A stretch of DNA of 64,000 nucleotides from Siphonodentalium dalli (Eukaryota > Mollusca > Scaphopoda > Gadilida > Siphonodentaliidae). The translations under genes and the position numbers were made by a program. The stretch is from assembly GCA_032622095.1 (NCBI GenBank), contig CP136061.1, forward strand, positions 18,168,991 through 18,232,990. Direction: 5' to 3'. Of the stretch, positions 254 through 63,618 are shown one piece after another. Within the stretch, counting starts at the first letter, position 1. Each line of letters starts with the position of its first letter. The notes beneath the pieces were generated by a model. That model was not told the DNA's origin and searched no databases. It saw only the letters and a program-made list of their open reading frames with translations.

Positions 254-653
254 TTAACCCTTTACCCAACAAACCGGCCAAAAACGGCCAAATAAAGCTT
301 CAACAGCCTAAAATATCTTCGGTCTGTCTCAATAGAACCATACAAATATGGATATCATTGGAACCGGCTCCTTGACCACATTGTGATAGTTACAGTTATG
401 GCCTGTGCCAATGCATTCTCTTATATATGCGAGTCGACCATAGGTCGCCTCGCATATATAAGAGAATGCATTGGCCTAAAAAAAATCTTTTTTTAACACT
501 TTTTACCATTTTTTCTTACATTCTTTAACAATTTTATAATTTTTAATGTGTTAAGCCAATGCATTCTCTTATATATGCGAGGCGACCTATGGTCGACTCG
601 CATATATAAGAGAATGCATTGGCACAGGGCCCTTCTGTTGGGTAAAGGGTTAA
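254..653. mobile_element. piggyBac-like MITE, type A (ACCCAACA ends)
   Basis: A 400 bp element bounded by TTAA with inverted ends CCCTTTACCCAACA. It carries the double-hairpin cassette (about 397-625): two stems ending in GCCAATGCATTCTCTTATAT, separated by an AT-rich spacer. TTAA sites and CCC termini are typical of piggyBac; it has no coding capacity. Confidence 0.8.
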
Positions 654-1072
654 TACGAGAGAAATATTCAGATAATAATAACCAACCTACTGTATTGTCG
701 ACAATTTGTTGAACTTAAAATCTCATTTCCAAGGGAACTACTGTCTTCTCAATGAGTATTTAGTATAGAAAGGGTTAATAATTATGTCAATTTTTGTGAG
801 GAAGCAGGTATTTATGTGTATAAGATATATTTATCTGAGTTCCTTATTATTCAGCAAGAATGCTAAATATGGAAAATATACTGCATGAGGACTCTGGACT
901 TCACATTTACCACGAATTTAAATGCACAGATTTATAATAAAAGATGTGTGGATACTGTATTACTTATGAAGACGTGGGGACTTCATCTGTGAATTTCTAA
1001 CTAATCTCATAAATATGTAAGAGCCGCAAGTGTTATGAGGACAATGTATTCCTTGATAAACAAACTATTTTC

Positions 1073-1260
1073 TTTTATCTGGCCTAAACACAAGGCCACA
1101 CAAAATTGACTATCTCTTTCTTGGACACTTTTGTTTTCAAAATGGACAGGCAGGCAGGTTTTTATATTTATTTTTTACCTGCAAAATAACCAAGCAGGCT
1201 GGTTTTTATATGTTTACACCCGAATTATAAAAAAAATTATTTTTGGGTGTGAAAGATTAC
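1073..1260. repeat. Dispersed repeat with GCAGGCAGGTTTTTATAT
   Basis: Shares AAGGCCACACAAA, ACAGGCAGGCAGG and TTTATTTTTTACCT with 8528-8720 and, more weakly, 16810-16890. Class unknown. Confidence 0.55.
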
Positions 1261-1514
1261 TTCTCATGATTAATTGTGAATGGAATTTTAATGTTAGTTT
1301 GTTGTAGAACCCAAATACATAGTTTGTACATAGCTTAAGCCATTTAAGCTATTTACTCATTTTCAAAATAGGTTTACTCTATTTTCAATATAGAGTATGT
1401 TAGTGTAATTTGCCCTCATCCCATTCTCAAATTCACTCATTTGTGACATATTAGCTGTTGAATAGAGTAGATGGCGTATACAATGGTACAGTCTCCCTTT
1501 ATTATTATCAGAAA

Positions 1515-1769
1515 CAAGCCTTGAAATAATGTGTCTGTCATTTGCAGAATGAGGTCCCCAGAGGGTGAATTTAGTGATGCTACCCCGCATAGCGGGCTAG
1601 CATCACCAAATTCACCCTCTGGGGGACCTCATTCTGCTTACACCTCAGCAGAATGAGGTTCCCAGAGGGTGAATTTGGTGATGCTAGCCCGCTATGCGGG
1701 GTAGCATCACTAAATTCACCCTCTGGAGACCTCATTCTGCAAATGACAGATACCCTATTTCAAGGCTTG
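1515..1769. mobile_element. hAT-type MITE (CAAGCCTTG ends)
   Basis: 255 bp with inverted ends CAAGCCTTGAAATA and exact 8 bp duplication ATCAGAAA (1507-1514, 1770-1777). Inside are two nested hairpins built from GCAGAATGAGGTCCCCAGAG arms. Located in or just after the Magi 3' UTR. Confidence 0.82.
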
Positions 1770-1836
1770 ATCAGAAATAACAAATGGAAACATTAAATAC
1801 AAGTTGAAATGTGTCTAGGTAAATTTATGTCAGTAC

Positions 1837-1901
1837 AGTGTATCCATCCGTATAGTGTATCCATTAGTATAGTGTATCCATCATTATAGTGTATCCATTG
1901 T
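1837..1901. repeat. Short tandem repeat, about 17 bp
   Basis: Four units of AGTGTATCCATYMGTAT in the probable 3' UTR. Confidence 0.75.
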
Positions 1902-2135
1902 CAAGTGACATGTTGATTTATAATTATTGTTTTCAGTGGGCCATAAAAAGGACTCAGCAGGCCATCTTTTTATGAGGGGGCAAGTGTCTGATAAACAGAA
2001 CATTAATTTCCTTTGGCCTAACAACTCAGCGGTGATACTTTCATCATCTCCCAATTGAGTATTCTGGATATACGGATCAACGGAAATGTTAACGAATAAA
2101 TCACATCTGAATATGATGAGCTATATACAATATTA

Positions 2136-62791
<60,656 letters not shown>

Positions 62792-62872
62792 CTGAAATGT
62801 TTAAAGAAAATTGTTTCATAATTTGTGTACTTGCTCAGTACCAACAGTAGCATGTTTAGCAGTAGCATATAT

Positions 62873-63329
62873 GTGACCCGCCATATCAAATCCAGTCGTA
62901 AGTCGGGATTTTTTTTACCCTGTGCCAATACATTCTCTTATATATGTGAGACGACCATAGGTCGCCTCGCATATATAAGAGAATGCATTGGCCTAACAAT
63001 TTTTTATCATTTTTTTTAAATAAATGTTTCTGACAATTTTTAGGACATAAAATAAAAAACATCCATTACCCTGCAGGGAGCCCCACACATATATAGAAGC
63101 ATATAGAAGAGTGTCGTCTGCTCATGTTTGTCAGGGGGCTCTGTATGGGTGAAATTATAAAATTGCTAAAGAATACAAGAAAATATTATTAAAATTGTAA
63201 AAAATTGTTAGGCCAATGCATTCTCTTATATATGCGAGGCGACCTATGGTTGACTCGCATATATAAGAGAATGCATTGGCACAGGGTAAAAAAATCCCGA
63301 CTTATGACTGGATTTGATATGGCGGGTCA
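62873..63329. mobile_element. Element with TGACCCGCC ends holding the double-hairpin cassette
   Basis: About 50 bp of near-perfect inverted ends starting TGACCCGCCATATCAAATCC, with the same two hairpins inside as in the TTAA elements. A 22 bp segment TAATTTGTGTACTTRYTCAGT follows the right end and recurs at about 62819, before the left end. Confidence 0.7.
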
Positions 63330-63618
63330 TAATTTGTGTACTTATTCAGTGTTCAGATAATAAAATTAATTAACAATCTTGGTTGTTGAACTTATTATCG
63401 GAATATTTCACACCAATGAAAAGGAATCCTTCTGGACTTGCATTATCTATTCTGTCTTTCATATGCTCATATATCGTGAATAACCAGTCAGAGAATTAAT
63501 AGACCATTCCAATGTATAATTTTATAACGTTAAGAGTTTTTCAACAAACATTTTAATATAATAGTAGAAATAACATGAATGAACAACATGCTAAAATCAG
63601 GAAAAAGCCTGCAAGCTT

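Follow-up and report, generated by a model that had tools for sequence, protein, structure and literature searches.

A hairpin module shared by mini-transposons with different ends in a 64 kb window of Siphonodentalium dalli

Mini-transposons that share an internal region

The CMITE families I-VI of the coral Acropora are TTAA MITEs whose terminal repeats differ between families but whose internal region is shared (PMC2872659). Their ends begin CCCT or CCCC, one copy bears the core of another family, and tandem arrays occur. The authors proposed that the core plays a role in transposition and that the families are cross-mobilised by several piggyBac-like transposases (PMC2872659). In the piggyBac and piggyBat transposons, also TTAA elements, a palindromic sequence bound by the transposase lies inside the ends, and the inner sequence can alter activity (PMC11707139). 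Defective copies of the Drosophila transposon Galileo have been ascribed to abortive gap repair, slippage, template switching and ectopic recombination (PMC4168063).

The elements reported here lie in one 64 kb window, the whole stretch of DNA that was analysed, to which all counts refer. It contains 27 copies of one hairpin, some of them truncated, in 16 elements. These resemble the CMITEs as described in the available text in several respects: i) they are short TTAA MITEs whose internal region is better conserved between families than the terminal repeats; ii) one copy has another family's core; iii) ends start CCCT or CCCC; and iv) tandem arrays are present. They differ in the core sequence, the published 60-base CMITE query having no significant match in the window (best 13 bases, E 0.039, outside the carriers). 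The ~75 bp CMITE core is not described in that text as a hairpin pair, whereas the module here consists of two 69-nt hairpins; and all CMITE families are of TTAA type, whereas one carrier here lacks TTAA. The piggyBac palindromes are 19 bp long as against two 69-nt hairpins, and the likeness is drawn without sequence comparison (PMC11707139). Galileo stands further away: it belongs to the P superfamily, makes 7-8 bp duplications, and the available account describes no module common to other families (PMC4168063). Among the matches listed, the coral CMITEs were the only direct precedent, and the element strings, sought as printed words, were absent from the literature searched. The mix-and-match of a shared core with different ends is already known from coral CMITEs; a core made of a hairpin pair, a recombinant centred on the hairpin, and carriage by a non-TTAA element may be new.

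The hairpin and its carriers

The typical hairpin is 69 nt long, not ~80 bp as first estimated, with arms of 33 positions. It is laid out as an arm GCCAATGCATTCTCTTATATATGCGAG, a mismatched base, 5 paired bases, ATA and the return arm. Read inward from the outer side (CCCTGTG), the left and right hairpins are oriented alike, and the full cassette is therefore an inverted pair around a spacer. The outer CCTGT is unpaired within its own hairpin and pairs only with the edge of the sister hairpin. The double-hairpin cassette of the original prediction holds for carriers such as type A but not for type B, whose copies have a single hairpin each. Each of the eight places originally quoted contains what had been described for it. 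The carriers starting at 8168, 18689, 21028, 22238, 24733, 27165, 32874, 38335 and 61645 (full coordinates below) come in addition to that list.

With as many as 7 mismatches allowed, a 27-nt half-stem recurs along the window, whereas ten order-1 Markov sequences of equal length contain none. For the hairpin tip, with at most 3 mismatches, 36 matches were counted at 23 places; 100 shuffles yielded none. Two stem patterns scanned in viral contigs and in contigs of prokaryote genomes were not found there, and Rfam models at gathering score gave 0 matches in the window. Helitrons end in a hairpin followed by CTAA; Helitron ends were set aside, the hairpins here being inverted pairs inside elements with terminal repeats.

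Four kinds of end had been predicted and four are seen, namely three TTAA types (A, B and C) and a type D without TTAA; the 16 carriers comprise 4 A, 3 B, 8 C and 1 D. The hairpin is present in 4/4 A copies and 3/4 B copies found, and the corresponding '8/8' for C is a biased rate since these copies were located largely via the hairpin. Judged from their sequence, A, B and C are TTAA (piggyBac-type) MITEs and non-autonomous. TTAA stands on both sides of 4/4 A and 4/4 B copies (in one B copy an extra T adjoins it); of six C elements tested, those at 27165 and 48291 have it on both sides and the other four on one side only. The terminal inverted repeats of A, B and C start TTAACCCT or TTAACCTT, fitting CC[C/T]T, with point variants in some copies. 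Further C ends considered at 28629, 37720, 39079 and 42581 were rejected as weak matches only. The joined-flank search for empty sites of 15 elements in the window gave no clean one; for the A copy at 17959 the stretch 1050-1085 (36 bases, 83%) is a weak candidate.

Type A is found at 254-653 (plus strand; cassette 402-628 with hairpins 407-475 and 555-623), 17959-18357 (plus; 18111-18179, 18259-18327), 18689-19095 (plus; left hairpin cut near the loop, 18842-18873, right hairpin 18997-19065) and 46719-47117 (minus; 46749-46817, 46896-46964). The B carriers are at 12731-13338 (minus; hairpin 13227-13295, cassette without the CCCTGT edge), 22238-22674 (plus; hairpin 22289-22357 and half the spacer) and 24733-24971 (minus; hairpin 24852-24920). 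Two features lack the hairpin: the fourth B copy (31287-31593, plus), in which the equivalent of bases 21-186 of the 22238 copy is missing, and a solo C end (24714-24736, no strand given) that abuts the B element at 24733. The solo C end and this B element have one TTAA in common, which would fit insertion of B at the border of a C element. The B copy at 31287 is immediately preceded by an array of ~25-bp tandem repeats (29760-31234), visible as regularly spaced matches to the copy's left flank.

Type C is represented by elements at 3950-4211 (plus; hairpins 3997-4065 and 4093-4161, left TTAA decayed), 8168-8329 (minus; one hairpin left with outer flank on either side, presumably by deletion between the repeated arms), 21028-21288 (minus; two length-variant hairpins, 21079-21142 and 21170-21242), 27165-27399 (minus; hairpin 27216-27284 and a second, 27312-27351, with its tip deleted) and 48291-48704 (plus; right half partly tandem-duplicated, hairpins 48339-48407, 48429-48497 and 48586-48654). 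Two fragments, 32874-32998 (minus; hairpin 32924-32990) and 38335-38470 (minus; hairpin 38385-38453), keep one C end each. The element at 61645-62140 (plus) has type C ends, its left TTAA lost, and is discussed below as a recombinant.

The single type D element (62870-63333, plus; hairpins 62924-62992 and 63212-63280) has ~45-bp terminal inverted repeats. It departs from the piggyBac type: the repeat starts TGACCCGCC and adjoins TATG and TAAT, with neither TTAA nor a CC[C/T]T start. D is a single copy without a clear duplication; if a TG unit was added at one end, the duplication could be TA.

Other repeats occur in the same window. A hAT-type family, P, with ends CAAGCCTTGAAATA is found at 1515-1769, 21816-22052, 27787-28038 and 45743-45996 and in further copies; three copies have an exact 8-bp duplication and the fourth an approximate one. 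Its geometry is that of the cassette, an inverted hairpin pair in which a 1x1 mismatch is followed by 5 bp and a loop of ATA. Sequence homology of the two hairpins was rejected, the local score of 7 being reached by 1485/2000 palindromic shuffles. Long single palindromes with CAGTAATGCCCTAA ends lie at 8924-9137, 9393-9594, 25169-25385, 43977-44189, 44441-44696 and 54319-54524; TA flanks 10/11 exact ends of this family. Nine translated stretches were given to Pfam, a non-exhaustive scan, and no transposase domain was found among them. Two of the nine have PDZ domains, which would fit a Magi-like gene on the minus strand.

Probable exchange of the module between families

Twenty-one of the 27 hairpins were aligned and used for all counts derived from the alignment; six length variants were left out (8218-8276, 18842-18873, 21079-21142, 21170-21242, 27312-27351 and 32924-32990). 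The A, B and D hairpins show 1-5 differences per 69 bases. The mean is 1.1 within A (21 pairs) and 2.7 within B (3 pairs), as compared to 1.9 between A and B (21 pairs), 2.4 between A and D (14 pairs) and 3.0 between B and D (6 pairs). The A, B and D cores are thus about as close as copies within B, suggesting that the exchange and the spread of these families are of similar age. The C hairpins are more varied (9.0 within C, 8.6-9.3 versus the other families). The hairpin tree has no well-supported branch, the alignment being too short to order the exchanges.

The ends outside the cassette behave differently. With one representative per end type, and the TTAACCCT hallmark removed except for D, 24/24 between-family pairs score like shuffled sequence (p 0.13-1.0) and 4/4 within-family control pairs score above it (p 0.002-0.006). 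The proposed comparison of flanks for unrelated terminal-repeat families, carried out within the window, thus found ends no more alike between families than shuffled sequence.

We consider it probable that A, B, C and one D element of another type acquired a common internal hairpin module and exchanged it by recombination between copies, the chimeras then being amplified in trans. Recombination is favoured over divergence because the ends are unrelated yet the A/B/D hairpins are nearly identical. Most likely, the exchange would have taken place inside the near-identical hairpins, by template switching or by ectopic gap repair, and each chimera would then have been amplified by whichever transposase recognises its ends. 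The module may chiefly be carried along as a passenger, its spread being due to the promotion of switching by palindromes.

The element at 61645-62140 shows such a reassortment, its hybrid hairpin being a single case with few diagnostic sites. Its left hairpin (61683-61751) has the A/B/D letter in 10/11 diagnostic columns. Its right hairpin (62022-62090) is a hybrid: columns 19 and 45 carry A/B/D letters, and 53, 54 and 79 carry C-right letters; column 44 fits neither consensus and equals the variant of two A/D copies. The outer arm is thus A/B/D-like and the inner arm C-right-like, which places the switch in the region of the loop, between alignment columns 45 and 53. The long A-rich spacer of this element resembles that of D. 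At 62140-62155, the right end of the element falls 15 bases inside a probable 5' splice site (GTAAGT), which adjoins a PDZ-coding stretch.

Breaks at the hairpins are seen in other copies. In the A copy at 18689 the left hairpin is missing from the loop onward; in C, the hairpin 27312-27351 lacks its tip and the copies at 8168 and 32874 have a single hairpin. The B copy at 31287 had been taken to show that the cassette is separable. The cassette is absent there, but its absence is better read as a deletion because the gap also removes ~25 bp of B's own end-adjoining sequence, present in the three cassette-bearing B copies.

Could the four kinds of end be diverged forms of one old family? A, B and C do begin TTAACCC(T), and this is the hallmark of the piggyBac type; unrelated ends around nearly identical hairpins, together with the recombinant 61645-62140, make the idea very improbable. 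This idea, which the original prediction had set against its own reading, is contradicted within the window, and the same three observations support the suggested sharing. The edges of the cassette bear on another explanation, that the cassette is or was a transposon of its own, with ends CCCTGTGCC...GGCACAGGG, inserted into members of several other families. Homology between families ends at, or a few bases from, CCCTGTGCC in the main matches, with two weak matches extending 20-24 bases past it (A-C 74%, C-D 72%), and the B copy at 12731 lacks the outer edge. An edge that is nearly identical in all families argues against random template switching, which should give varied edges, and CCCT is also a piggyBac-type terminal motif (CC[C/T]T; PMC2872659, in its available text). 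TA next to the edge in D and in 2/3 cassette-bearing B copies is what a TA duplication would leave, but the D flanks mirror each other, so that TA there is little proof, and A and C, with both edges present, show no target duplication flanking the cassette. Furthermore, B has only half a cassette, and all 27 copies in the window lie inside larger elements or fragments of them. An element of its own with CCCTGTGCC ends, as had been suggested, thus keeps the similar outer edge in its favour and is improbable given the missing duplications in A and C and the half cassette of B.

Folding and upkeep of the hairpins

Folded as RNA, the cassette 402-628 prefers one long 74-bp duplex between both hairpins (-147.9 kcal/mol, z -28.5) to the hairpins folded separately (-55.1 and -55.8 kcal/mol). 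If transcribed, this hairpin pair would give double-stranded RNA.

The hairpins might be kept since their fold, as DNA or RNA, serves the elements by aiding or tuning transposition, as a transposase site, or as a double-stranded transcript; on balance this is unlikely. Pairing is complete (32/32 positions) in both the A/B/D and the C-right consensus hairpin, and the six sites at which they differ form three compensated pairs (2.4e-6 if random; two of the pairs are adjacent), but palindrome correction without selection would also yield compensated pairs, and the C-left consensus, drawn from two copies, reaches only 29/32. Over the 21 aligned sequences, paired cells (94.6 vs 91.5%), both-side changes (20 vs 7.3) and covariation (0.096 vs 0.048) are above 500/500 shuffles; the numbers of pairs changed on both sides (301/500 shuffles as high) and of further pair types (445/500 as high) are not, which points to few independent events. 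Single-copy changes relative to the own group are 29 one-sided against 6 mirrored (three pairs, all in columns 38-60) in 19 hairpins, counted without both 61645-62140 hairpins and with changes unpolarised in the two-member C-left group. Inserted copies thus decay; the palindrome seems to be maintained in source lineages alone, whether through selection or through palindrome correction.

Divergence was also compared along the elements. C-right hairpins differ by 9.7% versus 18.0% for the adjoining ends (the tandem pair 48429/48586 left out) and are lower in 8/9 pairs, which are non-independent. Within B the hairpins (8/207) are no more conserved than the ends (4/130). Within A the mean difference is 3.2% for the arm (~0.9% without the copy at 18689) and 2.2% for hairpin 2; without that copy, hairpin 1 differs by 1.0% and the spacer by 8.9%. 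In A and B the hairpins have diverged roughly as much as the remainder of the elements. Taken together, these figures give no clear evidence of selection. Selection for structure, as originally suggested, is possible insofar as subfamilies differ by compensated pairs, and is opposed by the mostly one-sided changes and by A and B hairpins that have diverged like the rest.

Two outside comparisons favour a function of the fold: the same geometry is present in family P, and the 19-bp palindromes near both piggyBac ends are transposase sites while the subterminal sequence of piggyBat restricts activity (PMC11707139, in the part available). As inner end sequence in these transposons is bound by or restricts the transposase, the functional reading is a possible one. 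An extension of it, rather improbable in our estimate, is that the module is the unit of success and moves by recombination across superfamilies; the similar geometry in the hAT-type family P without sequence similarity would then mean that the fold, not the sequence, is selected.

With exchange by recombination as the preferred reading, these elements would add to the coral CMITEs a further case of MITE families with a common core and unlike ends, the core being a different one and the sharing possibly extending across superfamilies. Repeat annotation through core similarity would merge such unrelated families. If the pattern is confirmed genome-wide, it would become testable whether internal structure, not the ends, decides which mini-transposons succeed.
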